A DNA stretch of 64,000 bases, from contig NTMA01000029.1 in the NCBI GenBank assembly GCA_002917075.1, forward strand, positions 250,810 through 314,809, in the 5' to 3' direction. Below, one piece after another: positions 2,519-31,566 of this stretch. The number at the start of each line of letters is the position of its first letter. Within the stretch, counting starts at the first letter, position 1. The notes under the pieces are model-generated. The model was not told where the DNA came from. It did not search any database and saw only the letters and a list, made by a program, of their open reading frames with translations. The DNA comes from Hawksworthiomyces lignivorus (lineage: Eukaryota; Ascomycota; Sordariomycetes; Ophiostomatales; Ophiostomataceae). The position numbers and the translations under genes were made by a program.

Positions 2519-3224
2519 TTATTTATTTGCCGTGGACGTACTTAAAGCCAAAATAGGCATAGTGGCTCTGACAGCATCTAGCCAACCGTGTTGCGTCAAC
2601 CATGAATGTTTGTGCCGCGCTTGAGGCGGTGCAGTCAGCCTTGTCAATCCTCCGTCACCGCTTCTACAATGATTAAATTCTTCTTCTTTCGGTCTGCTTA
2701 TCAAGAAGCAGACTCTTTCGATATATACATCCATATATAGACATAAGCGACATGCTCGAAATGAATCGCGCTTTTGATATTAGGGTAGTAGTGACGGAAT
2801 TACAGAGCGTGAAGGCAATAGGAATCTAGTTGAGGTTTGGAGAGGGGCCTGTCACCACGTCAGTCACGATAACTGCGTCACTATCAACTATCACGAACAC
2901 ATGCCTACTGATGTCTTCATCGATAACTGAGAGGACGTTTGCTGGCATAACCCAACCAAGGTAGGCGCCGACAGAGGAGAGCGAAGCAGCCTTTTGTATT
3001 ATAAGCAAATATTGGACACAAATATCGGTGCAGATTCATAATAGAAAAAGGTGTCTTACAGCCACCGATCCAATGAACCGCGGACTACGATAGTAGTTCT
3101 TGGGCAAGTTGTCCCCGAAAGCTTCGGGTTTGGGGGACGTGTCCCGAAGGCGTGACGATCCTTGCTGGTGATCAGAATCCCCATGGCCCACGTCCGCTTT
3201 ACTGTCGGTGACATTGTCAGCCAT
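2519..3224 (-). pseudogene. Broken TRI12-type MFS efflux transporter remnant
   Basis: The start (ATG at 3224) and first two or three exons of a TRI12-family (fungal trichothecene-efflux/siderophore-type) major facilitator are recognisable. There is a hydrophilic N-terminus ending in NYYRSPRFIGSVA, then after an intron SLSSVGAYLGWVMPANVLSVIDEDI. A second apparent intron leads to SPSPNLN. The next codon is TAG where the family has Trp, and readable similarity continues past it (IPIAFTLCNSV). Further downstream only short pieces resemble the family, and in other frames (for example around 2560-2640). No remaining transmembrane helices are present, against about 14 in a full protein of roughly 550-600 residues. 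I read this as a dead gene, truncated and carrying at least one nonsense change. The exact 3' limit is uncertain. Confidence 0.6.
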
Positions 3225-4876
3225 TATTGTTAGTGTAGTTGTGTTATCAAGTTTTAGATGAGTATGAATATAAAGAATTCAACAGATACAATTTCATGTA
3301 ATGATCAGCACCTCTACAGGCCTTTTATGTATTTAACTCTATCATGATGGCTGAAGAAGCCCAATATCTTAATTACGTTAACTTACGTTATTCATTCAGG
3401 CAGGGACGAGATTTTGTCCAATAACTTTACACGGGTACCATTATCCCGGCCTGTGAATAGAAGTGAAATAAAAGGATTAAGATTTGGGATGCAGAGACCA
3501 TTTTCAGTTGAGCTAACCAAAATTTTCTAGGTGCACAATGATTCATTGCTATTGAAGGCGGCTCTTCTAAGTTTTATGCAAATGAATGAAATAAATAATT
3601 CTCAATTCTCAAATGCTAATTGCCTTAAGTAGCTATTCAGAACCAAAGTCAAGCTATAATATATTATGTATTTAACCATTGGCAGTACATTACGAAAACT
3701 TACTACTAACACATCAATATACAACTGTCGACACCACCCAACAATTTATCTAGGTCAAAACTGGATTTTGTTGACTGCTAGTATTTATCGAGAGCGATAT
3801 GAGAAGACTCGTCGACTCAAACCTAGCTACCAAGACCACAACAACGACCTAAGGAACAGATGGTCTGGAGGCTCTGATATCCTGCTGCACAGCAAGCCTC
3901 ACTGCTAGAAGGGACAGGAACTTGCCTTTCCATATAGGCTTCAAACTTTATATCATGCTGTGGCAGCCTTGTGATAGGATCGGCCTCCAACCAGAAGTCC
4001 GGTTCAGAGGTTCAACAAATCAGCCCCAATTAGCTTCGAAATAGATTCTTTCCATAGGCTTTGATCTCATGAAGAGTCTGCCCCCTATTTCTGTAATAAA
4101 ATGTTATATGCTTGTATTACCCACATTTTGCTGGAAAGTCTACTACATCTTACTCCTTCTCCATATTCCCTCCCTTCGAAGTAGAGTAGAAGGCACAACG
4201 GAGAAGTGGTAAAATCCTCATGTACCTTCCGACCATTGCAACCTGAAGGCTGCTTTACCCACTAGAATCCAGTACGCTTAGAATTCTAAAAGAAGGAAAT
4301 TTTAATCAATACAATTACCTTCCATATTTTGCTAGTATATTCTTAGTTTGGATTCTTTTTGATTCGGCATTCTGAGAGGAGCAGTATATAGGAAGACTAT
4401 GGAGCTTGTTGCACTATGGGCGCGAAAATTTGTATTATTTCGACGTGCTCTTTCAGAATAGCTAGCTAGAGAAAATGACGAAAAAAAATAGCTAGCTGTG
4501 ATGCGATTTGTTGTATTTTCCCAGGACTAAACCTGAGAGAATGCAAACGACAAAGAACCTCATCGACGCGGCATGGCGCGAATAATTGGCTGGCTTAGTA
4601 AAACTGAACCCGTAAAGTGGCGAGGCTTGAGAATAAACACAAAATTGTGGCTTAAAGGTGTCTCCTAGAGCGTGTTTGGGATAAATCTCCAATTGAACTC
4701 CGCATTTGACTAAGCATTAATCCACGGTCGCATCGAGTACCCGGGTTCCCGGATACCCGCAGGAGCGGATAACCACCCACAAGTAGACTGAATACTCAAT
4801 TTCTACCTTTACAGGTAAGAAACCTGATATCTGGGAGCGATTACCTATTGTCATCGTTACCTTTCAGCCTGGTCTC
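3225..4876. other. Intergenic; upstream region of a Zn2Cys6 gene
   Basis: No convincing gene is seen in this 1.65 kb, which is AT-rich with many stops in all frames. Close to the downstream gene, at 4741-4752, there is a palindrome CCGGGTTCCCGG followed by ATACCC, a candidate zinc-cluster site. A related palindrome lies in the 8257-8785 promoter. Confidence 0.4.
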
Positions 4877-13089: not shown

Positions 13090-14202
13090 ATGAGAGGAAT
13101 ATGGAGACTCCTCGCCCCGCGAGAGAGGCGTGAGGCTGCGTCGAGTCTGTCACAGTTATCGCAGGAGCGTTCTCATATTGGCTCTGCTGTGCCCGAAACC
13201 AAGGAGGACTCTTCCCCGTACGGGATCGAAGTATGGCGCGACTGTCCCGACGCGGTCATCGACGTCTGCTTTGTCCACGGCCTGACGGGCGATCGAGAGA
13301 GCACCTGGGCCTGCGAGCGGTCGGCGCCGTGGCCAAAAACCCTTCTCCCCCAGGTGCTCAGCCGTGCGCGCATCCTCACATATGGCTACGACGCGTACAT
13401 TGTGCGAAAGTCAGCCGCGTCGTCAAATCGGCTGGTCGACCATGCTACAAATCTTTTGCAAGATCTCACGACGAACAGAACTAGCTGCCATGCGTCGTCT
13501 CGTCCTCTCATCTTTGTCGCCCACAGCCTCGGCGGTCTTGTGTGCAAGGAGGCCATTCTCCTCTCGAGAAACAACCCCGAGCCGCACCTCCGGGGCATAT
13601 TCTACCGCACTAAGGGCATTATTTTTATGAGCACCCCCCACAGGGGCGCGTGGATGGCCGACTGGGCGAAGATACCCGCTTCTGCTTTCGGCCTCATGAA
13701 GTCGACCAACAGCTCGCTGCTAAAAATCTTGGGAACAGACAGCGAGATGCTCGAATCTGTGCAGACTCGGTTCCTGTCCATGGTTCGAGAGCAGCGCGAG
13801 AGCGGCCGGCCCTTTGAGGTGACGTGCTTCTTTGAAGAACTGCCTATGCCTGCAATTGGGAAGATCGTGTCAAAATACTCGGCCACGTTCGACAGCTACA
13901 ACCTCATCACCATCCATGCAAACCACAGGAGCATGGTGAGGTTTCCTTCAGCGGAAGACAACGGATTCAAGAGGCTGGTTGGCGAGCTGAAAAGGTGGGA
14001 ATCCGAAATCGAAGACCCTGGCACAATTCAGTTGACAGGAACAAAGGACGGAGGATGTTACAGCAGGCCTGCTGGTGTGTCAGTGAACAATTATGGCTCT
14101 GGTCACCAATTTACCGCTTTGGGAGGGCTTCAAAACAATAATGTGAGTTCTGGTTGCCAGCTAGTCGGAGTAAATTTTAGTCTAAACGGATACTCTTGCT
14201 AG
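13090..14202 (+). CDS. SesB-like alpha/beta hydrolase with C-terminal sigma-type amyloid motif
   Basis: Intronless gene of 370 residues. The body (about 45-305) is a serine hydrolase of the DUF676/SERAC1-like type that fungi use in NLR-linked cell-death proteins. It has the oxyanion segment FVHGLTGDRESTW, nucleophile elbow VAHSLGGLV (Ser146), STPHRGAWMADW, and a candidate catalytic His in the ANHRSMVRF segment. After residue 310 the protein becomes a Gly/Asn/Gln-rich tail. Residues about 336-358 contain GHQ, GLQ and GCQ triplets spaced roughly ten residues apart, within GSGHQF...GGLQNNN...GCQL. The same pattern sits at the C-terminus of the SesA-like protein and at the N-terminus of the receptor at 17630. 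By analogy with the het-e/ses locus of Nectria, the tail would be templated into amyloid by the receptor and activate the hydrolase domain. It is probably a lipid-active cell-death effector, but its activity is untested. Confidence 0.85.
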   Translation: MRGIWRLLAPRERREAASSLSQLSQERSHIGSAVPETKEDSSPYGIEVWRDCPDAVIDVCFVHGLTGDRESTWACERSAPWPKTLLPQVLSRARILTYGYDAYIVRKSAASSNRLVDHATNLLQDLTTNRTSCHASSRPLIFVAHSLGGLVCKEAILLSRNNPEPHLRGIFYRTKGIIFMSTPHRGAWMADWAKIPASAFGLMKSTNSSLLKILGTDSEMLESVQTRFLSMVREQRESGRPFEVTCFFEELPMPAIGKIVSKYSATFDSYNLITIHANHRSMVRFPSAEDNGFKRLVGELKRWESEIEDPGTIQLTGTKDGGCYSRPAGVSVNNYGSGHQFTALGGLQNNNVSSGCQLVGVNFSLNGYSC

Positions 14203-14940
14203 AGACTGTATCCTGTTGTTTAACCGGTGGATGTTGGTCCTTTGGCCTTGAAATAAGCGCGTAGTAAATTAAAATATGATTGTGGAACTCTTGTATATAT
14301 CATTAACCAAGCATTCCCCCTCCCCCCCCCCCCCTAATCTAACAACGTTGAAAACCTACTATTGCTACTATCATGCAGACTGATTTACTATGTATAACAG
14401 TCTCCTACGAACTCGGGTGTTTTTTTCTCCAGAAGGTTCCACCTAGCATAGACATAAATAGTCAGAATTGACTAGTAAATTAACTCTAGTAACGTTGGAA
14501 AGTGGGCTTCTGCACCTATAATGGGAATACTGAATAAGAGCCATTCTAAACAGGAATGAAGGCGCTACATAGCATGCGAGTGTCTGTGTGACTGATGGGT
14601 CTTTGAGTTGAAGGACAGACAAACTGCCAGGATTCTGTATAATCTTCGAAAGAATTTATGCGTTGATGGTATCCCCATCTAGACTATTGGCCTCTGAAGT
14701 CAAACTGGATAAGTGTGGTCACGAGCATGCCATCTTAAGTCCCTCGTCTCTGTAGATATCACATATCTAAGCTATGTCTTGCTCCGTAACCTTGGTTTGA
14801 TACACGACTTGGAGCTGGCAGGCAATATCTACCTATTCTAGGTGGAACCCTCTGGGGCAGAAACCACCGCCTGATTAGGTGAGGAGATTATTATACATAA
14901 TAAGACAGTCTGAGTAGTAGTAGCAGTAGTAGTCGTGGTT
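14203..14940. other. Intergenic, no gene seen
   Basis: This is the 3' flank of the SesB-like gene. It contains a C-rich homopolymer run (about 14315-14333) and a GTAGTA/AGTAGT trinucleotide patch (14910-14935) next to the retroelement fragment. No coding signal is seen. Confidence 0.4.
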
Positions 14941-15290
14941 AAACAAAAGAGATTACAAATTAGTTGTGAGTAGGGCTACGCCTGTGGCGTACCCCCCTCT
15001 AGTTGGCCTGCCAAGTTATAGGCTGGTATGCACCCACTCCATTTAAGCCACCAGAGTACAGGACGAGCTGCCGGCCCTCCCGTGTTCAGGCGGTGGTTCA
15101 AGTCAGCCGGAGTCAGGGGCCATACCGGAGGTTTTCCTGCCGTATCGGGGCAGTGCAGTATTACGTGCTCCGGAGTCTCCTCCGCCACGCCGCAGGCGCA
15201 CAGGGGAGAGTCCCGGTTTTTGTGTATGCGGTGGAGGTGCGCCGCCAGGCCGATGTGGCCCGTACGCACCATCTCTTTCGACTAAGTGAA
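14941..15290 (-). mobile_element. 3'-end fragment of a non-LTR (Tad/LINE-type) retrotransposon
   Basis: On the minus strand about 98 codons (15272-14976) encode the typical C-terminal tail of a fungal LINE polymerase. It has RTGHIGLAAHLHRI, then a CCHC-like zinc motif (CACG...EHVILHC) and a short tail ending at a stop. Everything upstream of this tail (endonuclease, reverse transcriptase, RNase H) is missing, which is the usual 5' truncation of LINE insertions. It sits between the SesB-like and SesA-like genes. The trinucleotide patch at 14910-14935 may be the element's 3' tail. I could not identify target-site duplications. The reading frame is still open, so the insertion may be fairly recent. 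Confidence 0.72.
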
Positions 15291-15461
15291 GTATAGTTTA
15301 ATAAGCATTTTGCATCTTGAGTACACTGGAATGCAGCACTACAACAAATGTCCTGTGTTTTCTAGAGACTTGAATTTTCGGCTCCTCACTATCTCTGCAC
15401 TACCGTACGGTCGATTTTATTTATTTTATTTAACCCCCCCAACCCCCCCCTTAGATGAGCT

Positions 15462-16094
15462 TCACTTGGAACTTGTGCTTGACCCAAAATGGAGAGTCTG
15501 GATAGAAGCCCCATTGAAAGTCCCAACGGTTTGGGTGCCAGTGCCTGTATTGATGTTCTGCAACCCACTCTCTGCATTAATGAATTGGTCACCCGAACCA
15601 AAATGGAGAAATTTGTTGCTCAGCCCCTTATTCGGCACGGAATCCATCGCCGACAGCGTCTTGATTGCGTCTTGCAATTCTTTGAGTTGAACTCCCATCG
15701 CTCCCTCGAGCGCACCATACTTTATTAATTCACATACGTCTGCCATGAGCCCTACAACCAAGTTTTCCACCTTGTTCTGCCCTCGCTGCACGGCCGCTCT
15801 GTAGTTCTCGAGCCTTGATTCTGCTCTGCTAACATCATCGAATATGATCGGGATCGGCTTCGCTTTCATATTGATGCTCGCACTCAAATTCTCGACTCGT
15901 GAATCGCCACGGTGAATGTGCTTGCTTAGCCGCTTTTGAGTGGATTGGACAGTTCTGCTGATATTTGCCAGTTGCCGACCGGATTCGTGTACAGCAGGAG
16001 GGAGACTCCTGTCGTCCTTGAATTCATTGTAAGATTTTGCGGCAGAGTTGAGACAATCAATAGTCTCTGTAAAGTTGGCGGCTGCCATTTCCAT
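15462..16094 (-). CDS. SesA-domain protein with C-terminal sigma-type amyloid motif
   Basis: Intronless gene of 210 residues from the ATG at 16094. A second in-frame ATG two codons later is equally possible. Residues 1-150 form a mostly helical domain matching the fungal SesA/NACHT_N family pattern, including LPPAVHESGRQL and RAAVQRGQNKVENLVVGLM. In other fungi this domain is a cell-death effector or N-terminal NLR domain. The tail from about 160 is Gly/Asn/Gln/Thr-rich and carries GDQ, GLQ and GTQ triplets, matching the neighbouring hydrolase and receptor. The five-residue string LHFGS occurs on both sides of the motif (about 163-167 and 201-205). The gene is divergent from the receptor at 17630 and convergent with the SesB-like gene. 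It is a candidate effector recruited by motif templating, probably membrane-active. This is inferred from family, not from this protein. Confidence 0.85.
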   Translation of the reverse strand: MEMAAANFTETIDCLNSAAKSYNEFKDDRSLPPAVHESGRQLANISRTVQSTQKRLSKHIHRGDSRVENLSASINMKAKPIPIIFDDVSRAESRLENYRAAVQRGQNKVENLVVGLMADVCELIKYGALEGAMGVQLKELQDAIKTLSAMDSVPNKGLSNKFLHFGSGDQFINAESGLQNINTGTGTQTVGTFNGASIQTLHFGSSTSSK

Positions 16095-17629
16095 ACGGCG
16101 CAAAAAAGGAAAATGTGTGATATTAGGATGTACCAGTGCTGACAGCGTCGAGTCTTTTGTTAGCCGACAATGTCTTGTTTATCAAATATTGCGTCCAGAG
16201 TTTTTCGGCGGAGATTATAAGACGACTCACCCAACGTATCACAGCTGTTGACTTTGAGAAACGAAGAAGCCACCAAGAACATGAAGTTCACCTCCTTCTA
16301 TTGCAATAATCATATCACACTGGGATCTTCATATTACCAAATGCGTAAGTAATTGGGATAGCCGCTTCCCGCGCGTTGGGCATTTATTTTTCTACTTCGC
16401 ATAGCAGAGCCTCATCATGCAGCGGCACGAAGGATCCTCTTGACTCCTAACGCAGTCCTTCTGCCCAATGCCTCCCTTCTTCTCTCCTCTTGCTACCTGA
16501 AAGTGCAGTTTGGCGGCGGGCGGGCAGTCGTGGTCGCATTGAATTGGCCAATTGCAAACAATGTGTACCAGAAGCAACTTTAGCTGCCCCTACTAGCCAG
16601 ATGTCGGGTACGACTAGTGGTGACTTTCACAAGGAACACAAAACGACTTGAGATACGAAGAGATGCCCCATATACTGCATATCCTGCTGCGCTAGAAGGC
16701 CTGCACAACAAAGGAAGAATCAAGTACCACATAACACGTCGCGAAGCATTGGCTTTGAAGAGCATCTCCCGATCCCACGCAATGCGGGCATGAACCCTAG
16801 TTGGGATGGCTAATAATATCTGTCATCGAGGAGACGCTATCAGTTGTTGTGGTTGTCTTAGTTGGTATGTCGTTCGCGAGTTAGACTATCCTGCTTGTCT
16901 TCTTCTCCGGTTCTCCTCTAAACAAGACCGCAATAGAGAATAAGTCACCCTACTGCAGAAAAAAAGCTGTGCCTAACACCAGCAGCCATGATGGATGCTC
17001 TCATTGTCATGCTGCATTCTTTCCGGCTTGCATTGTGGCGGTATGGTCGAACGCTTCTAAAATAAATCCCTCTTCTCTTTAAATATTGGTAGTACTTGAT
17101 TTCCTTTTCACGCTTGCCCGAATCGGCTGTTCTTTAAAACACAAGTCTGTGTTGCGACAAATCACAACTCATATTTTCAAGCCTTCTTTGCGCCCAACCG
17201 TATCTTCTCCTTCTCCGTGCCCAACCAGTCCTCGATACCGCTGAGCTCCCTTATCATGAACACCATTTACACTGTGCTCTTTGAGACAAGAAATCGATCA
17301 AGGAGGTCTTCGTTGCCAATGACGCTCTAGATGATTCTATTTAATTTCTCAATCGTACTCTCCCTTTTTATGCGTTCCACCGCGACGCTCCCTTTAGACA
17401 CCACGAAGGATGGCCTGATGCAATAAGAGCTGTGCTCTTCATTTAGAACGTACCGTCGTCTATGGTGATATTTTATTGGCCTCCCAACTCCGTAGGCTAC
17501 TCAGTGTCCTAAGGCATCAACACATGTCCAGAAAACCCATATTAGTTCACATTCCAGCCTTCTTTTGTTAGAGAGCTTCTTAGACCAACGTGGCAATCTT
17601 GCAGTCGGCGAACCGACATTGATATCGCC
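16095..17629. promoter_or_regulatory. Shared upstream region of SesA-like gene and NLR gene
   Basis: A 1.5 kb interval separates the divergent effector and receptor genes. No coding sequence is convincing here. It is pyrimidine-rich toward the receptor (about 17080-17250). It presumably contains both promoters, but I can point to no specific operator. Confidence 0.4.
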
Positions 17630-20600
17630 ATGAGGGATGCCAACACATACGGCGTCAGCAACGGAACTGGGGATCAACAAATCGCTACCGAAGGCGGCCT
17701 TCAGTGCATCAACTCAGAATCTGGCAATCAAGTAAATATCATTCATGCTAGTAAGGCTATAAGCATTTTATCAATGGGGTGAAACCTTTCTAACTACATT
17801 GTCCAGACCAAAATGACGATGCGAAGCTCTCAAAAGAGATTATATCTTCGCTGTCCTTTGACGAAATGGACACTCGGTTCTATGAAATAGAGCCCGAAGC
17901 TAGGGGGACTTGCAGGTGGCTCTTCGAACACGAAGGATACCGCGACTGGGAAGCTGGCAATGGACGCCTGCTGTGGATCATAGGGAAACCCGGCTCCGGA
18001 AAGTCGACGCTACTGCGGCATACTCTCCGCGACATCGAGAAGCGCGCTAACTGGAAGCCGCTCATTCTTGCGTTCTTCTTTCACGGCCGGGGTAGCGAGC
18101 TCCAAAAATCGCGGCTTGGCTTGTTCCGTTCGCTCCTCTGCCAAGCGTACGAAAAAAGGCAAATGGCTCCCAGTGCCAAAGAGAAGCTCGAAGAAGACAT
18201 TCTGAGGAAGCGCAGGAGAAAACAGAACAGCGACCTACTATGGTCTCTAAACGAGCTGCAGTATATTTTCAACGAATGGCTCAGAATCGCCCTAGAGACT
18301 ACCCCGATCTGCATATTTATCGATGCGCTAGACGAGAGCGGCGATGAGAACACCAAAGTTCTGGCCGAGCAGTTTCTTGACCTCATCCAGATGTGCCGCT
18401 CGAAAGAACTACATAATAATCTTCACATCTGCCTTAGTTGTCGACACGGTCCTCGGTTGACCAAGCACGGCTCGTGTGTGATAGATGTTGGACAAAAGAA
18501 CACAGGCGACATATCAACCTACATACGAGACAAGTTTTTCAATTATGGATACGACAAAGAAGTCCGAGTCGAGAACCTGATCAGGAATCGCGCCAATGGC
18601 CTATTCCTATGGGTCCGCTTGGTTGTCGACAGCGTTCTGAAACGTCTCAAAGAGGCAGTGCCTGCGGGTGACATCGAAGCCGAGGTCAATAACATCCCTC
18701 TGGATCTGTATGAGCTATACAGGTGCCTACTTCAAAAAGCAGAGACACAATCTTACCTACTTTTCCGATGGATATACTTTGCCGCGAGGCCTCTTTCCAT
18801 AGCTGAGCTGAAATGGATAATATACAAGGACGTCGATCAACGCACAAATCCGGCTCAGTCGTCGGAACGAGAGCGGAGCAATGCCGAGAATGAGATGGCC
18901 GACGAGGAGACAGGAAACAGGCTCGTACAACTGAGCTGCAGCCTCGCTGAAATTATTTCGCTGCGAGGAAAGAATCCAGTTGTTCAGTTCATCCACCAGT
19001 CCGTCAAAGAATTTTTCGTCCAGGGTCCCCTAGAGAGGCTATCTGGCAACGCGGACGGCAGTCCGTCCTCATGCGCACACTACGAGCTATTCGAGACCTG
19101 CATTAACTACCTTAAAATGGAGAAAGTGGAGCAAATAAATCCTTGTTGCAAGAAGCATGCTTTGGAAAAGCTTCCTTTTCTGCACTACGCTACGACTTCA
19201 TGGATATCGCACGCAAGACGAATCCAGCAGCTTCACGACTCTCCGAGTGGCCATCTAGATTACTTCGCTAAGCAGCGAGACAAGTTTGATTCATGGGTAA
19301 AAATTTACAGAAAGATCGATCAGTATTCCGAATATTGCCCAGCAAGTGGAACCACCATAATACACATAGCAGCGCAGCATAAATTCGAAAGGCTGTTAAA
19401 GAAGAACGATCTGGTCCTCCCTTATATAAATGCATCTGATGACGATGGTCGGACGCCCCTCTCATATGCAGCCGAGAATGGACACAAGAGCGTCGTCGAT
19501 TTGCTTTTCGAAACTGGTAAACTCGAAGTTGACGTGAGAGACAACAATGGCTGGACGCCGCTCTCGTGGGCTGCCAGAAACGGGTACAGAGATATTGTGG
19601 AAACACTGCTCGACAACAACGCCGACATACACACACAAGACAACAACGATTTTGTCGAACTTTTTCTTGCCATGGAAAAGAATAAAGAGACGATCAAGCG
19701 GTATCGCGATTTCATACAGGGCATAAAATCCATTGAAACAGTGTTCGCGTCTCTCTCCAGTCCGACCAAAGACAATGTTGCCATCAAAAAGTCTGAATGT
19801 GGTTGGACGCCGCTCGCATGGGCAGCCACGAAAGGAGAGATGGCTGTAGTCAAGCTACTCATCCAGAGAAAGGCCAATGTAAATGCAAAAGACGCCAAAC
19901 ACGGCCTAACACCTCTTTTCCTTTCTATTATGATGAAGCACGAGTCTGTGACTGCACTACTTCTTGAGAACAGCGCGAATGTCTGTATAAAAGATACATT
20001 CACTGGCTGGACGCCACTTTCGCTCACCGCTCATACGGGGCAGAAGGATATAGCAGAGAAGCTTCTCCAAAAAAAGGCCGACATCTGTTCGAAGGACAAA
20101 CGCGGAAGAACACCTCTGTCTCTGGCTGCCGAAAACGGGCATATGGATGTGGTTAAACTACTTTTAAAGAAGCTGGTAAAGGACAATGCCGACATCAACA
20201 CAAAAGACCAAAGCGGCCGAACGCCGCTTTCTCTGGCTGCCAAAAATGGGCATAGTGCTGTAGCTGAGCTCCTTCTGGAGAGCGGTGTTGATGTTGATGG
20301 GGAAGACAAAGGCGGCCAAACACCGCTTTCCCTAGCTGCTGAGAACGGGCACGGAGACGCGGTTAGGCTGCTTCTCGAGAACAAAGCTAATGTTCATACA
20401 AAAACAAGCAGCGGCCGAACGCCACTTTCTCTGGCTGCCAAGAATGGGCACAAAGCTGCGGTTTGCCTGCTTTTAGACGGTAATGCCAATATTGACACAA
20501 AAGACAAAAACGGCCAAACACCTCTTTCACTGGCTGCTGAGAACGGGCGCTATGTTACAGCTGAATTCCTCTTAACTCGTGGTGCTAATATCGATACGGG

Positions 20601-21609
20601 AAACAGCAGGGGTCGAACACCTCTTTCTCTCGCTTCTAAGAGCGGGCACGAGGATGTGGTTCGGCTGCTTCTTGAGAAAGGGGCTAATGTCCATTTAAGG
20701 GACGATGCGAAAGCCCACCGTGGCGAAAATCAAGTAGCAGGCCGTCGAATACCTCTCCACTTGGCAGCTGCTAAGGGACACATGGCTATAGTCAAGCTGC
20801 TCCTTGGGGCCAGATCTGCGCCCAACACACGAGATTCCGAAGGGAGAACGCCGCTGTTGCTTGCTATAATATGGGGCCATACGGACGTGGCCCGGTTGCT
20901 TATCGATACGAACAAAGTCAACGTTGATGCGCAAGACAATGAAGGTCAAACGCCGCTCTTGGTGGCCACTGCAAAAGGAAATACAGATGTGGTCGAAATG
21001 CTTCTTGCCACTGACCAAATCAACGTCAACGAAAGAGACAGCAAAGGTTATTCGTCGCTATGTCTTGGAGCCTTGCTGGGGCATGCAGTTGTAGTCAAGC
21101 TGCTTCTTGATACGGATGAAGTTGATGTTGACAAATTGAACAACGTCGGCGCTACAGCACTTGGCCTGGCCGTCTATGGCAAGCTACTGCACGAGTATAA
21201 AGCTATTTTCAACGACAAAGACGTAGATCCGGAACTCTTATGTAATATGGGCAAAGGGCATGTCGATGTAACCAAACAACTCCTGGGTCGAGACGCCCTC
21301 CTGCGACTGGAAAAATCAAAAGGCGAGAAGTTGCTCCGGGTTGCCTCCATGAGAGACGACACAACGGCGGCAGAGCTGCTTATCATGAAAGGCAAAATTA
21401 GCGTCGATACCAAGGACAATGAATCTGGTCGGACGCCACTCTCGCTGGCAGCTGAGGCTGGCCACAAGGCCGTGGTCGAGCTTTTGCTCGACCACGGGGC
21501 CGATGTCGAGGCAGTGGACAAAGACGATCGAAAGCCGTTATGGTACGCCATCAAGAACAAGCACGAGCCCATTGAAAAGCTTTTATCCTATCACTCTAGC
21601 AAAGGGTAA
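17630..21609 (+). CDS. NACHT-ankyrin NOD-like receptor with N-terminal sigma-type amyloid motif
   Basis: Receptor of about 1307 residues in two exons, 17630-17750 and 17807-21609. The first exon encodes only the 40-residue N-terminal motif region, with GDQ, GLQ and GNQ triplets about ten residues apart (residues 12-35). The GTAAGG...CCAG intron then joins in phase to KLSKEIISSLSFDEMDTRF, the usual lead-in to a fungal NACHT. Walker A (GKPGSGKST) is at about 100-108 and Walker B (ICIFIDALDES) at 208-218. A winged-helix segment with FIHQSVKEFF follows near 430-450. From about residue 580 to the end are some 18-20 ankyrin repeats, with a non-ankyrin insertion near 650-700. Family knowledge: ligand binding by repeats drives NACHT oligomerisation and exposes the N-terminal motif as an amyloid seed. 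Ankyrins here replace the WD repeats of the classical HET-E type receptor. Adjacent genes carry the matching motif. Confidence 0.9.
20092..20709 (+). repeat. Highly similar 99-base ankyrin repeat units
   Basis: Inside the receptor gene, consecutive repeats start near 20101, 20215, 20314, 20413, 20512 and 20611, with an exact 99-base period after the first. The first unit is longer by 15 bases. Units begin GGCCGAACGCC or GGCCAAACACC in alternation. Their proteins alternate RTPLSLAAKNGH and QTPLSLAAENGH, so units 2+3 and 4+5 look like copies of a two-repeat block. Such recent internal duplication is known in fungal NLR repeat domains. Confidence 0.8.
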
Positions 21610-22620: not shown

Positions 22621-25600
22621 TCACTCGGCGACAAGCTCCTTGCGTACTAGTCGTGACTGGCGGGCGATGAAGCCACTCAACGACTGTATGTTGCGTGAAC
22701 CTAAAAACTCCAGTACAGGCACAGTTGCCTCCATTTCACTACTAACCCAGTTACGCAGTTCCTAAAGAAGCATTAGCGTCATGTTTTTGATAAGTTTTGC
22801 CGTTTAAACGCTTTGAAGACTTGAAACATACCACTGCAATCAATGAGTCCAGGCCGTATTGGCTGAGAGGCTTCTGAGTGTCCATCTCGTCTTCGGTTGG
22901 AAGCATTAAAAGTGCTGTTATCTTAGCACGAATAGCGCTCTCAAGGATGTTGGCCAATTCGTCAGACGAGCTGGCTTGTCGCAGCCTTTCGCGGATACTC
23001 TGTGCTGTGTCGGCTGATGCGGCACCGTCTGCGGCCGAGTCGTCTTCGCCGCCCGTCCGCAGTGCCATACGACGTGCCATTGCGAAGCGCGGATCCTGGT
23101 AGATTGCACGTGCTGGATCCCCTCCAGTGTACCGGCCAAGGCCCAAGCCTGTGACAACATGGGCCGGTACCCAGCTAGCTGCGTCTGCCTCCGTCTCGGT
23201 CTCTGTTGGTTTCCCGGCAACCATAGCTGCTTCGATCAAGGCGAGGCACTCCCGACCATCAATTTCTTCAAATCCTTGCGACCGCAGCGTTTGCTGCACT
23301 GTGCCGTGCTCGGCTACGTAGCCGATGCCTGTGATCATCCCTAGATCTAGCGTGGATCCGGCCAGGCCGCGGCGTCTTCGGTAGCGAGCAAATGCATCTT
23401 GGAAGGAGGATGCTGCACCGTAGGCCGCCTGACTGGGGTTGCCAATAATGCCCACCATGGACGACAAGAGAACGAAGAAGTCCACGTCGGTGCCTGGCAG
23501 CTGCTTGTGCAGATTCCATGTGCCGGCCACCTTGGGCCACAGCGAATTGTTCCAGGATTCGTAGGACATGTCTTGAAAGAGCGCACTCTCCATTACGAGG
23601 CCTAGATGCACGACACCACGCACGGGTGGGAACCCAGCATCCTTTGCCGACTGCAGAGCTGCCGCCAGTTGCTCGGCGTGGCCCACATCGCAGTTGCTCA
23701 CCTGCACAGCCGCGCCAGCGTCGCGTAGCTGGCTTACAGCCGCGGCAGCTGCGGCATTTGTGATCCCACCACGCGATAGAATAATTAGATAGCGGGCACC
23801 CAGCTCGCCAGCCATGCGTGCAGCCAAAGCACGGCCGATACCGCCTAGTCCACCGACAAGCAAGTAAGACCCGTCGGCTCGGAGCTGGAGAGGCGAAATG
23901 CGCGGGGACATGACTTTAGTAGAGAGCGACGCAGGCACGGACGAGACCTCTGTAGTCGTCGTTCTAGTTGTCAGCGTAGTCGTTGTGGCACCGGACGTGA
24001 TCGTTTCTGTCTTGATGGTTGTCGTCTTCGTAGTTGTAGGCTGCGACTGCGGCACGAGAACGAGTTTGCCAATATGGCGGCCGGCCTGCATAGTGCGCAG
24101 AGCAGTAACAGAATCGGTGTAGCCATAGGATGTCAGTGGCGTCGGAGCGCGGGCCACGCCTTGCCGTACCAGCTCCATGCTCTCAGCCCACAGGCGTGCA
24201 CCGTATGTTGGCCGCTCTGCCAACAATGCCACCAGGTCTACGGCCATGAACGTAACGTTGCGAGCAAACGGCGCCATGTCGAGGCGGCCATGACGGTTCA
24301 GATCGCGCTTGCCCAGTTCCACGAATCGGCCGAATGAGGCGATGCAGCGCCATGATGCGCGCAGCAGCTCCGACGCCAGCACATTGAACACTACGTCCAC
24401 ACCACGGTTCTGCGTGGCCTGCATCACAGCCTCGGCGAAGCTTTCGTCGCGGCTGCTGAATATGTGGTTAGCGGGGATGCCGTATTGATCGATGAGGAAT
24501 CGCTTCTTCTCAGCAGTTCCAACTGTTGCATAGATAGTGGCGCCCCGATGTTGGCAGAGCTGCACAAGAGCCTGGCCAAGACCACCCGAGGCAGCGTGGA
24601 TCAAGACTGTTTCGCCAGCAGCTAGTGTTGTTGCATTAAGCGCGTGAAGTGCAGTGCAGAAGATGATGGGAAGCGAAGCAGCCTCCTCCATTGTCAGAGA
24701 GTCAGGCACTTGTTGGGCGCGCCACGCTTCACATCGCACCGTTGTCGCAAATGTGCCGTCAGCTGGGGCGGCTACGCGGTCGCCTACTTTGATTTCGGTC
24801 ACCTGGGCACCTACACGCGTGACAGTACCGGCACATTCTCGGCCCAGATCTCGGGTCTCAATCTGACCCATGGCGACCATGACGTCGTGGAAGTTGAGAC
24901 CGGCAGCCTCGACAGAGATTTCCACGTGATCATCTGGCAGAGTGTCGGCAGTGGATAGCATCTTCGGGTCATCATCGAAATAGAGACTGTCGAGCAAGCC
25001 AGGCTGGCCTACTTCGAGCTTGAGATGGCGGCCGGTTTGCACAGCGGGAGCAGAAACAATATGGCGCCGGCCAATGCGCGAGGCTACGTAATCAGACGTC
25101 TGGTCTGACTCGTCATAGCGAGGGATATGTAAGGTACCCTTAGGACCACGTTCTGCCAGTTCCAGCTCTACTTCACCAATAGTAGCTTTGCCTTCACCGT
25201 CTTCAGAAGCAGAGAGGCCTGTCAAAGCAAAGGAGCGCTCGAATACCCGCTTGACAGTCTTGATTGAAGCATTACCATCTGCTGCGGTGTCCGTATTGCT
25301 CGAGAGCATACTAAGGTCTAGATGGACAAGACGACCGCCGAGCTCAACGCGCAGGGTACGCAACAAGCCCTTGATCAAAGCAAAATCTGGAACATTTTCG
25401 CCATCTGAAGCGCCACGGGTGAGCCAAAGAACGTAAGCACTATTACCAGCAGGACGTAAGAATAAGCGCCGCAATTTTTCCATGCTTTCTGGATTCTGAG
25501 GTCCCAATGTACCAGGTTCGGTTTGATAGAAAACGCAAACTTGACCCTCTTCAACGGTAGGCAATTCTTCCCACATTGTATAGATGTTCGGAGCCGCAAG

Positions 25601-28600
25601 GCCATTACTGATATCAGAGGCCACGATAGACTCTGCTAGTCTTTCTAGCCAGGGCTTATTGCCTGCAGTATCTGTGATGAACAGTGGATGGGGCTGCTGC
25701 TTCGCCTGAACGATGACATCCACAGGAGGAGCAACTTCTGCAGGATCTTCCACCGTTGCTGTCTTTGCAGCGTCTTCAATCTCTGTAGCGGCTACTTTTT
25801 CTTCAGTGACCTTCGGTAGGAGCTTTGCGACAGCCGTGCTGACCATGGTTGTTCCCTGGTGCGTTGCTAAATCTGGTGTTTCCCAAACTGCTGCATCTAG
25901 TCCAGAGAATCCCTGTGAGCGTAGAACCTCGTCCCATTGTGCCTCTGCCAACAACGGCGAATCTTGTCTATGCTCCTCCTCGGCAATCCACCAACCATCA
26001 AATATACCAAAAATATTCGCCACGGCGGCTGTGGAGACAATCTGCTCAGGTACACGAACAAGCTCAATCAGTAGCAGAGTTCCTCCGGGACGAAGCAGCT
26101 GCCGTGCGTGTGCCACAGTGCGGGAAATGTTGCGCGTGGCATGCAAAACATTGGCAGCTACAACCAGATCGTATGTGCCGCCGACAAATCCTTGCTGGAT
26201 AGGCTCGCGTTCCACATCTAGACGACGGAAATTCAGCAAGTGAGCCCAAGGTTTGGTCTTCTCGCGGACGGCCTCAAAAAATCCCGTGCTGATGTCTGTC
26301 ACATCATACGAAAGGAAGCGGGAGAGAGAGTTGGTACCATCGTTATCGCCCCCGAGAGCGCGGAGAAGCGGTAGGGTTGCACCACCGGTTCCGGCGCCGA
26401 TTTCAAGTATCCTCATGTGCGGATTCTTGTGAGCAAGAAGGTCGACATAGACAGCCGCCTGCTGATACTGCCGGGCCATGCGAGGATTGTGGGCATAGTA
26501 CTGGCCCAAAATATCATCCTTCATTGTTACCTCAAGGGAGTCTGCATCACCCAGCACAATGCGATGCATGTTAGCAGTGACGGCCGCCAATAGACGACCT
26601 TCAGCACCGGACTGCTTAAGTTCATTCAAGAGAGCTTGACGCTCCTCGGCTGTCGCGTTGGGCCAGGTTGCAATGTCGTCAGCATGAGCTGGAGGAAGTG
26701 GACGAAAAGCGTCATGATCTGTCTCTTGTTGGCTCCGTTCTTCTAGACGCTTCTTTTGAACTTCTAAGACTGAGTCCCGCTGGCGGCGAAGTGATTTGTA
26801 TAGCTTTTGCCCTTTGGTGGTCAAACTAGGTACGATATTCTCTGGGATATGCGAAAGGGCATAGTCGGCCATGTAAAACGCAGACTGGTCGAGGCGGCGC
26901 AGAGCAGCACTTTCTTCAGGTGGTGGCATGAGATGTGCACAGAGCTCATCAAACTGTTCCGAGGTCAAAAAGGCCGGATCTGGCTGCCATTCAGACTGGA
27001 AATAGGTTTTAGGTGGCAGTCCTTCAGCATCTCCGGGGCCAGAGGGCATGTTGCCAGCCAAACTGGTCATACGTAAACCATCCATGCGGATCAGAGGCGA
27101 CGGCACAGAAGATTCTCGCGGGTTCTGTTTGGCAGCTGAAGGTCCGTAAGCCGCCAGGTCGATGTCAAGGTTTCTGAAACCACTGCGACGCACGCCCAGG
27201 TACACGCCAAGGGCATCTCCGGCTGTTGTCTGACCTAGCTCCGCCGAAATAAAGATGTGCTCAAAGAATACAGGCATGATAGCCGCCTTAAGCATGTCTC
27301 GGAAGGCCATGATGCCATGAAGGCAAGCGTCCAGTGTTCCTGGGTGCACTACAATGGGACTGTGGTAGTGGGCCGGCATGCAAGATGCGACGTCAGGAAT
27401 CGAAACAGTACCGACAATGCGGTTAGTGGAATCCGATGATGACCGGCCGGCCTTGGCAGTGACTAGGTTAGCAAATGTAGGACCATATTCCAAGCCAATG
27501 TTGGTGCAATGCTCATATAACGCTGAAAGGTCCACGTCCTGGGTACAGGTATCCAGAGATAGAGTCCTCCATTCCGTGTCAAGGCGGGCTTTTTGAGACT
27601 GAACTTCAGAGGTGTCGGTGACTGACTCGAGGTTTTGTTCACCGGACCCTGTATTTTGCCTCCAGCGCACTGCAATGAGACCACGGCAATGTTCTGACCA
27701 GTTGTCAGTGATGGGACTTCCCATTGGGGTAGTGTTGGTGGCGCTGCTGCTACATGAGTAGACAAAGAACTCATGCCAGAGAGTGGAGTTGTCCATGGCA
27801 CTTTCAGCCAAAGGCCGGAGGCTGATCATCGCCTCTACTTCTCCTGACCCTTCAGGAATAATCAGCGCCTGGCCAAGCGAAACATCGCGGAGTTCATAGC
27901 CCTCGATCTCTGGAACAGCATCTTGCGAGGATGTTACGGCGGCAGTTGCCTTCCAGAGTGCATCTTGCCGTGCAGCCTCTATGGCCATCGAGATATAGCC
28001 TGCAGCTGGATAGACCACCAAGCCCTGCACCCGATGGTCACGCACCCATGGCGTTTCTGCGGTGCGAATCCACTGGCGCCAGCGGGGCTCCAGAGGATTG
28101 CCAAACCGAACAGGAGCTCCCAGTAGATCATGTCTCGGATGCTCCCGCTGGCGGTAGCGGATACTCTCGCGCGGCTCTGCCCAATACGCAGTTTGGTGGT
28201 TCCAAGGATACTTCGGCAGGTCAACTAAAAGTTTGTGATCGTTGGATTCAGAGTTGTTGACAGAGAGAAGATTGAGAGGAATTCCACGTTCAAAAAGAGA
28301 GCGTGCTAAAGCCTGGGCTGTTTCTGTAGCATCCTGGCCACGACGAAGCATAGACAAGATGCCGATCTTAGTCAGGGGAGGCTCCGATTGTAAGATTTGT
28401 CGTATAGGGCCTGCCAGAGCGGCATGCGGGCCAACCTCAATGAGGACATCAACTTGAGGCTTTCGAATAAATGACGGATTGGAAGACGATTGGCCCGTCT
28501 TGGCTTCGTAGCAAAGTGCGCTCAATGCTTCTGTGAAACGCACTGGACTAACTAGATTCTCGACCCAGTAGTCTAGCGTAAGTGCTCCATGTTCAAGCTT

Positions 28601-31566
28601 CTTGCCGGTAACCGACGAATACATTTCGACTGCACTGTCGTCTCCCTTGGCAGGGTCTTGGAAGGCTTCTACGACAGTCTTGTTGGCTTGAAGGAGCTCT
28701 CGGTATGCCTCAGCTGCAGCAGCCATGCGGTGCGAGTGGTATGCAAAGCCAACAACCAACTTCCGGTGCCGGATGCCTCTGGATTTGCACTCTTCTACGA
28801 GCTCATCAATAGCAGCATCATCGCCCGAGACGGTAAAACTTTGCGGGCTGTTGTAGCAAGCAATCACAGCTTTTCCACGGCGGAGATTGTCCAAAATAGA
28901 TTGGGTCGTCGACTCGTCGCATGCAATGGCTACCATACCACCTCTACAGGAGTCGGCCGCGGAAGAATCGAGAGGCACGCGGAAATATGCAGCAGCTACC
29001 GCAGCCTCTTGAGAAAGCAAGCCTGCCGCGTAAGCAGCGCCAATTTCACCGCTAGAATGGCCCACCACAGCCGTAGGGGTGACGCTCCACGAGCGTAGCA
29101 GGTCTACCAGTGCTACTTGAAGGATCGTGCATAGCGGCTGACTGACAGCTGGCTCATTGACTCGCGTCGTGTTTGCGTCCCGGGCCAGCAGTTCCTCATG
29201 CAGAGACCAGTCAGCGCGCATGGTGCTCGATGCCAAAATTTCGGCGCTGCGGTCAAGCGACGCTCGAAACACAGGATATGTTGTGGCCAGCTCGCGGCCC
29301 ATGGCATACCACTGGGCACCCTGACCAGTAAACACAAATGCAACCGTGGCTGGCTTTGGGGAGTTTTGGAAACGAGCTTGGCTAAGGGCGTCGCGAAGGC
29401 CAGCGACAGATGAAGCCGACACAGCAGCTTTCCAAGGCAGAGCGGATCTCCGATCACTTATCGTGTACGCCAAGTCATCAAGGAATTGAACGTCGTGACT
29501 GACACTTAGGTCGTCCTGCTTGAGATAAGTCTCTAGCCGGGCCACTTGTTCCTTTCCGGATATTTCGTCCTGTGCACTTAGAGCAATTACTTTGGGAACG
29601 GCAGCCTCTTCAACAACCAGAGGACCGGCCGCTAGTGATTGGGACTTTGCAACTGGGTCAGCTTCTATAGCTACAGAGTTGTCCTTATTGTCACCAAGAT
29701 TCTGGGATTTGATAGAGCCTTCCAGATGAAGCTCTTGAGATATGGATTTTTGGTGCTGATGGAAGGACGTCGTAGAAGCGACAGGAGACCCAAATCCACT
29801 GCTGTTTGATTTTGGACTGGGCAGTAAAGACGATGCTTGTGATGATGGTGATAGACTACTGCTTGGTCCGCTAGATCTCGGCGTAGAAGGCGTAGAATGG
29901 GCGCCATCGTTGGTATGATCATTGTCATTACTGTCACTGCCCTCGTTGCTGCCAACGAAACTATCATGATCGCTGCTGTTCGAAGCGCGATAGTGGTGGA
30001 AAGTATAAAGACAACCAGACAAGTTACGTGCCTTGAAGTAGTCTGCCGCACTCTCAATAATCGCGTGAGCATTGGTGCCACCATAGCCGAAGCCATTGAT
30101 GGATGCCCGGAGGACAGGAAGGCTCGTAGCCTCACGCCAAGATCGAACTGCCGTGGGCACTTCGATGTGCCAGTCGTCCAAAGGGATCCGGCTGTTAGGC
30201 TTGAGAAAGCCGACATTCGGCAGCAGTATTTCTCTTTCCAACATCATTACTGTTTTAATGAGACCAGCAACTCCGCTTGCTCCCTCTAGATGCCCAATGT
30301 TGGTTTTGATACACCCTACCACCAAGGGCATCTTGTTCCTTCGTTCGTCGTCATAGCACATTCCGAATGTCTCATACAGGGCCTTGGCCTCGACTGGATC
30401 GCCAGCTTGTGTGCCAGTTCCGTGTGCTTCCACATATGAAGTTTCCGCCAGATCAAGGCCGGCTTGCTGGTACACGCGCCGAATCAGCGCTGCCTGCGCT
30501 TCTCCGCTGGGAAAAGTGATTCCCGGCGTCCGGCCATCTTGGTTGGTGCCCGTGTTGCGCACAACGGCCCGGACAGCGTCGTTGTCTTCTAATGCGAGAT
30601 CCAGCCGCTTCAAAACGACACATGCGACGCCTTCGCCGCGCCCGTAGCCATTGGCTCGGCTGTCGTACGTATATGAACGACCATCTGGCGACAGAAAGCC
30701 CATTGTGCTCATAGATGCCAGAGAATCTTGGCATAGTGTGCAGTTTACACCAGCGACTAGGGCGGTGCTGCATTCCCCAGCTCGAAGAGCCTGGCATGCC
30801 AGATGCAGGGCAACCAGACTCGATGAGCATGCTGTGTCAAGAGTGACAGAAGGTCCATGCGCATTAAAGAAATATGACAGGCGATTTGCCAGCATAGCCT
30901 GTCCAGTTCCCGTGGCATGATATAGTGGTATTGCATCAGAATCTCTGAGAGTTATCTTCGCCCAGTCAAAACAAAACGAGCCGACAAAAACGCCCATATC
31001 TGATCCAGAGACCTGTGCCAAGGAAATGCCGGCTGGTGCAACAATGTTAGTCAATGTGTCAACCACAATCAAATAGATTTGACTGCATGTCTTCCTTACC
31101 ATTTTCGAGGGCTTCATAGCTGCATTCGAGGAGTAATCTTTGTTGTGGGTCGAGAGTCTGGGATAAGAAGGGGTCGGTGTTAGCTTATACTGGGTATGTA
31201 AGCATACTCTGCATTTCATTATCAAACGTAAACATACAGCAGCTTCTGTTTTGGTCATGCCAAAAAAAGGTGCATCAAAGTACGCCACGTCTTCTTTGAG
31301 ATAAAACCCTCCCTTCACATTGGTCTAAGTCGACGTGTTAGTGGCTAAGGAAATGGGAAAAGGATAGATGAATTATAACTGACTGCTCCGTTTCTCGACT
31401 GGTCAGGGTGGTAAAATGCTGAGTGGTTGAATCTAGTGGAAGGGGTTTCAGTCCATGCATCTTCCCCTTCCGAGCACATTTCCCAGAGTTTCAATGGATC
31501 GGTAGCTTTCCCAGGAAAGCGGCCGCCGAAACCGACGATGGCAACAGGCGTCACCGCGTCAGTCAT
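22621..31566 (-). CDS. Highly reducing iterative type I polyketide synthase
   Basis: Predicted protein of about 2889 residues. The model has five exons on the minus strand: 31566-31384, 31324-31238, 31157-31100, 31032-22832 and 22761-22621. All introns are GT-AG and in phase. Domain order by DNA position: KS (31550-30020; active site DTACSSS, HGTGTQAGDP, NIGHLEGASG), AT (about 29370-28480; FTGQGAQW and GHSSGEIGAAY), DH (28160-27050; DHRVQGLVVYPAAGY, later HPGTLDACLHG), C-methyltransferase (about 26420; LEIGAGTGGAT), ER (25060-24060; GLNFHDVMVAMG and ASGGLGQA), KR (23890-23330; GGLGGIGRALA) and ACP (GLDSLIAVELRNW). The last exon is needed to complete the ACP. It lacks a terminal thioesterase, so a separate release enzyme is expected. 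Low-complexity linkers lie between KS and AT (Ser/Asn/Pro-rich) and between ER and KR (Thr-rich). The product is unknown, probably a methylated reduced chain. Confidence 0.95.

Follow-up and report, generated by a model that had tools for sequence, protein, structure and literature searches.

Several fungal loci have been described in which a NOD-like receptor (NLR) is encoded close to effectors with a related motif. At the Ses locus of Nectria haematococca, SesA (210 codons) and SesB (386 codons, opposite strand) lie near a HET-E-like open reading frame (ORF) (PMC516043). The receptor het-eN was described as a protein with NACHT and ankyrin repeats, a 5΄ intron that had been missed and a motif common to sesA and sesB; fibril formation by a het-eN peptide is mentioned there as unpublished, and the same paper reports receptors with ANK, TPR, WD or HEAT repeats and motifs that group by cluster (PMC3321046). 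Control of two effectors by one NLR occurs for both PP and sigma motifs; in the PP cluster PNT1/HELLP/SBP of Chaetomium globosum, the effectors are a HeLo-like cell-death protein and a putative lipase (PMC5485727). In Podospora anserina, NWD2 and HET-S are adjacent genes, and the N-terminal amyloid motif of the NLR templates the C-terminal tail of the effector (PMC4344463, PMC5485727, PMC3321046). Here, we analyzed a locus of Hawksworthiomyces lignivorus that resembles these systems and lies within a 64-kb window (the whole stretch of DNA analyzed, C114:250810-314809, from an assembly of 43.7 Mb in 191 contigs).

Positions 13090-21609 of the window contain three unbroken genes in the order SesB (+), SesA (–) and NLR (+). 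We consider it probable (about 0.85), on the basis of sequence comparisons, that this trio is a sigma-type ses locus, that is, a three-gene module of amyloid-signalled regulated cell death or growth arrest. The features of the locus are as follows.

13090 to 14202, + strand: SesB-like alpha/beta hydrolase with a C-terminal sigma motif; single exon, 370 aa
About 14080 to 14181, + strand: sigma motif of the SesB-like protein, residues 331-364 (Pfam NACHT_sigma)
15462 to 16094, – strand: SesA-domain protein with a C-terminal sigma motif at residues 161-196; single exon, 210 aa
17630 to 17750, + strand: receptor (NLR) exon 1, with the start codon and the putative N-terminal sigma motif, residues 14-34 (held-out profile)
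17751 to 17806, + strand: predicted phase-1 intron of 56 nt that separates exon 1 from exon 2 (GTAAGG...CCAG)
17807 to 21609, + strand: receptor exon 2, encoding the NACHT ATPase and, after it, 17 or more ankyrin repeats (Pfam; anchored repeat starts)

As in N. haematococca (PMC516043, PMC3321046, PMC5485727), a single NACHT-ankyrin receptor with a putative sigma motif at its N-terminus and a predicted 5΄ intron accompanies SesA and SesB genes that lie on opposite strands and carry the motif at their C-termini. The sizes are also close, at 210 aa for SesA against 210 codons and 370 aa for SesB against 386 codons. Compared by published description, the locus differs from that of N. haematococca in the middle triplet of the motif, which reads GLQ throughout the trio. 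The C. globosum cluster shares the arrangement of one NLR with two effectors but uses a PP motif instead of a sigma motif, whereas NWD2/HET-S of P. anserina has a HET-s motif, WD repeats and a single effector.

The motif shared by the three proteins consists of three G-x-Q triplets. These start at residues 338, 346 and 355 in the SesB-like protein (GHQ/GLQ/GCQ), at 168, 177 and 186 in SesA (GDQ/GLQ/GTQ) and at 14, 23 and 32 in the receptor (GDQ/GLQ/GNQ). The distance between the second and third triplets is 9 residues in all three proteins, as had been claimed in the original prediction from the sequence alone; that between the first and second is 9 residues in the receptor and SesA, and 8 in the hydrolase. 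The three genes with their triplets lie where they had been predicted. When the window was translated in six frames, the pattern G.Q-x5..7-G.Q-x5..7-G.Q matched three times, once in each protein of the trio, compared with no match over 200 residue shuffles. Elsewhere in the genome, five loci totalling 16,824 bases yielded one match to the pattern, inside a SesA tail (L002). Because the pattern was defined post hoc, after the motif had been seen, the profile tests carry more weight.

The profile comparison proposed in the original prediction succeeded for the effectors and gave a divided result for the receptor. With Pfam NACHT_sigma (cut-off 27.6 bits), the SesB-like protein scored 38.2 bits and SesA 35.1 bits, whereas the receptor exon reached 13.4 bits (genome-wide E 4.7), below the cut-off. 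We also trained a hidden Markov model (HMM) on six sigma tails, drawn from three clusters and not including the window receptor, and searched 2033 six-frame ORFs of the window. The receptor exon was recovered with E 7e-5; apart from the training sequences, the next ORF followed at E 1.3. With the limit set at E 1, no HET-s motif model was listed for either the hydrolase or SesA (the receptor was searched without exon 1). As another candidate family, the PP motif was rejected for the window locus, where PF17046 had no match; genome-wide, this model gave three matches, all below the cut-off (best 22.1 against 23.2, on C163), and it is called a misnamed PP model in PMC12261475.

We then compared motifs within and between the sigma clusters of the genome. 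For 8 of 9 motifs in four clusters, the nearest motif was that of a cluster-mate (permutation P = 0.0009). The tendency persisted when the C110 pair described below was removed (6/7, P = 0.01) and when the C147 SesA, which lacks a scored cluster-mate, was added (8/10, P = 0.0004). The exception among the nine was the window SesA, which scored 69 with the C118 SesA and 66 with the window SesB. The window receptor motif scored best with the window SesA (61), followed by the C147 SesA (49) and the window SesB (41). The best DNA alignments between the three window motif segments extended over only 7, 11 and 22 bp, and the likeness of these motifs in protein is therefore not the product of recent copying. 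Direct observation covers the domains and the order in which they stand, together with the shared motif, where it lies in each protein and how it resembles the others of its cluster. The original prediction that two nearby effectors accompany an amyloid-signalled NLR of the sigma type is correct as far as sequence can tell.

The effector and receptor domains were assigned as follows. The SesB-like protein matched DUF676 (24.8 bits, cut-off 20.3) and, below the cut-off, Abhydrolase_6 (23.0 bits, cut-off 26.3), and a nucleophile-type motif, VAHSLGG, can be read directly in its sequence. SesA matched the Pfam family of that name with 69.0 bits (cut-off 26.3). Receptor exon 2 matched NPHP3_N (100.8 bits), NACHT (29.8) and Ank_2 (473), with 17 anchored ankyrin repeat starts. 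The receptor is predicted to comprise 1307 aa over two exons, the first of which encodes 40 residues, mostly motif; a second GTAA donor close to the intron breaks the frame, as judged by eye. Only about 70 residues precede the NACHT domain, which leaves insufficient space for an N-terminal effector domain.

By analogy with the described systems, ligand sensing, oligomerization, amyloid templating and cell death may be assigned to the parts of this locus. The ankyrin repeats of the receptor would detect a ligand, upon which the NACHT ATPase would oligomerize and gather several N-terminal sigma segments. Once clustered, these segments would nucleate a cross-beta fold, which would serve as template for the homologous tails at the C-termini of SesA and SesB. 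After refolding, SesA might perturb membranes by means of its helical bundle, and SesB might act as a lipase or esterase that hydrolyzes lipids, so that one receptor would fire two effectors. An AlphaFold model of SesA, with confident helices within residues 9-148 and a low-confidence tail, fits such a mechanism. A Foldseek search with this model returned no match at E 0.001. In VIA-align, MLKL entries appeared within the top 13 rows, yet not above unrelated bundles, and by these model comparisons SesA is no more like MLKL than it is like unrelated bundles. The AlphaFold model of SesB, computed from a two-sequence alignment, was uninformative (mean predicted local distance difference test score 29), and the best result of a sequence search of solved structures with SesB was a single match at E 0.41.

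NACHT_sigma was found at nine places on four contigs in a genome search, with three in the window and two each on C118, C133 and C110. Among the sigma clusters found, the window holds the only complete and unbroken triad. At C118 (L023/L024, 369001-389000), a decayed triad retains an open SesA. Its receptor is 41% identical to the window receptor across the NACHT part, with two in-frame stops in the core and, as judged by eye, a phase-1 intron (GTAAGG...GTGCAG) behind the motif; its SesB is a relic alignable across 102 residues. At C133 (L021/L022, 197501-217500), SesB and SesA both have sigma tails and are 60% (over 321 residues) and 35% identical to their window counterparts, respectively. 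No receptor was found within the 30 kb compared around this pair, where the only matches obtained were ankyrin-like, with E values of 0.4 or higher; in the genome-wide NPHP3_N search, which scored 150 of 175 candidates, the closest match lay about 66 kb off. Both C118 and C133 keep the window order and orientation (SesB+ SesA– NLR+) for the genes still present. Oxidase-like genes, putatively FAD-oxidase or D-lactate-dehydrogenase-like, were also observed near C133 (L022, 1941-3365) and C118 (L023, 3603-5192). They are 48% identical to each other, hinting that a larger block was duplicated.

The strongest alternative to a functioning triad is that SesA and SesB work together as a sigma prion pair, whereas the receptor motif has drifted and no longer templates them, the receptor being uncoupled or in the course of being lost like the C118 and C133 copies. 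The score of the receptor motif, below the Pfam cut-off that both effectors exceed, speaks for this reading, as do the stops in the C118 receptor core next to a relic SesB and the lack of a nearby receptor at C133. However, the reading frame of the window receptor is open across 1307 codons, and its motif retains all three G-x-Q triplets at the spacing of SesA and scores highest with the SesA of its own cluster. We regard this alternative as quite unlikely.

It could also be argued that the tails are convergent low-complexity Gly/Asn/Gln segments that share no role, as the motifs are short, compositionally biased and barely alike in DNA. This is very improbable given that the pattern was matched three times in the window and never in 200 shuffles, that the held-out profile found the receptor exon, and that the motif occupies the N-terminus of the receptor and the C-termini of the effectors, as in the described systems.

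The original prediction further suggested that the ankyrin sensor, or the triad as such, might be undescribed; no close homologue was indeed listed, but a genuinely new variant of the class can be dismissed almost entirely, since N. haematococca is reported to have both an ankyrin-bearing het-eN and the triad (PMC3321046), a single NLR with two effectors is covered in PMC5485727, and sigma, NACHT and ankyrin families occur together in the homologues listed. The receptor had 752 homologues at E 0.001, of which 120 were listed; none of these exceeded 43% identity within the aligned region. In 34 of these 120, precomputed Pfam assignments contained both NACHT_sigma and ankyrin families (hand count). 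Five of the 120 were named Het-eN, none of which belonged to the NACHT_sigma set; four of the five had a SesA domain instead. With a local sigma profile (i-Evalue < 0.05), 39 of the 120 and the single SesA homologue were matched, although two of the 39 receptor matches lay away from the N-terminus. This SesA homologue, from Plectosphaerella plurivora and 38% identical, was the only one among 83 candidates. According to PMC12261475, a single Fusarium oxysporum genome holds 17 sigma motifs, and multiple modules per genome are thus already known. The present locus adds a diverged, unbroken triad beside decayed sister copies in one genome, and should be useful for studying how receptor and effector motifs are matched while parallel channels remain separate.

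Further loci of the genome may belong to related systems. At C147 (L064/L065, 325001-345000), a SesA with a sigma-like tail and a NACHT-ankyrin ORF of 2146 aa are divergently oriented and possibly form a SesA/NLR pair; the N-terminus of the ORF is sigma-like by eye only. With the local sigma profile, the C147 receptor ORF was not listed at E 1 and the C147 SesA reached just E 0.022; Pfam NACHT_sigma matched neither. More SesA-domain proteins were observed at L001, L004 and L005, with Gly/Asn-rich C-termini that are not sigma-like by eye and are perhaps other amyloid motifs. The NPHP3_N search gave 150 matches in total, several being pieces of single genes, indicating that NLR-like ATPases are abundant in this genome.

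The two sigma-like tails of C110 belong to a different kind of pair. One is carried by a hydrolase-like gene (L025, C110:74001-84000; about 3215-4753, several exons by reading) with two stretches that share 27 to 30% identity with the window SesB; a Pfam search of its exon ORF returned no hydrolase match. Some 1 kb further downstream, in the same orientation, the ORF at 5764-6648 of L025 encodes two chitin-binding-like (CBM18-like) stretches, a Ser/Thr-rich stalk, one hydrophobic helix and the other motif tail. The chitin-binding-like stretches scored 16.6 bits, below the cut-off of 27.8, and homologues of the protein include proteins named chitin-binding. With Pfam NACHT_sigma, the two C110 tails scored 16.7 and 11.1 bits, both below the cut-off. 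Searched against the genome, the tail of the CBM18-like protein had the hydrolase tail as its sole other reported match (62% over 29 residues, E 0.004). A chitin-binding search reported 33 genome matches, several within one gene; among the 30 loci examined, the motif was present in one, that of C110, although the profile was trained partly on C110. In the NPHP3_N search no receptor was reported on this contig (NB-ARC receptors were not sought).

From this pair, we tentatively suggest, as a somewhat doubtful possibility, that sigma-type signalling in this genome extends beyond NLR loci: the C110 protein would be a cell-surface glycan receptor that triggers an intracellular enzyme through amyloid templating by its presumed cytosolic tail, and it would operate beside NLR channels, such as the window triad, with motif versions of their own. 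Such a surface receptor would be a fungal analogue of insect PGRP-LC, which bears a cRHIM. This reading has weak points. No signal peptide was found in the CBM18-like protein, and the two tails are identical at 56 of 69 bases, so that a repeat copied recently, and not function, may account for their likeness. Nine homologues of the CBM18-like protein were obtained among 4257 candidates; by eye, they contained chitin-binding-like stretches, and in none did a sigma tail follow a membrane helix. The titles and abstract openings listed in literature searches yielded no fungal chitin-binding or transmembrane receptor with an amyloid motif, and the parts available of PMC12261475, PMC12881547 and PMC9815663 contained nothing relevant on ‘transmembrane’ or ‘chitin’. 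The sigma-type motif on a membrane-anchored chitin-binding-like protein is a lead without a counterpart in the literature examined.

Two further observations concern the surroundings of the window genes. Between SesB and SesA, positions 14979-15281 (–) resemble, by eye, the end of a non-LTR (long terminal repeat) retroelement reverse transcriptase; Pfam reported no match for this fragment. About 1.1 kb from the receptor gene, a large ORF (22751-31324, –) encodes a reducing polyketide synthase.
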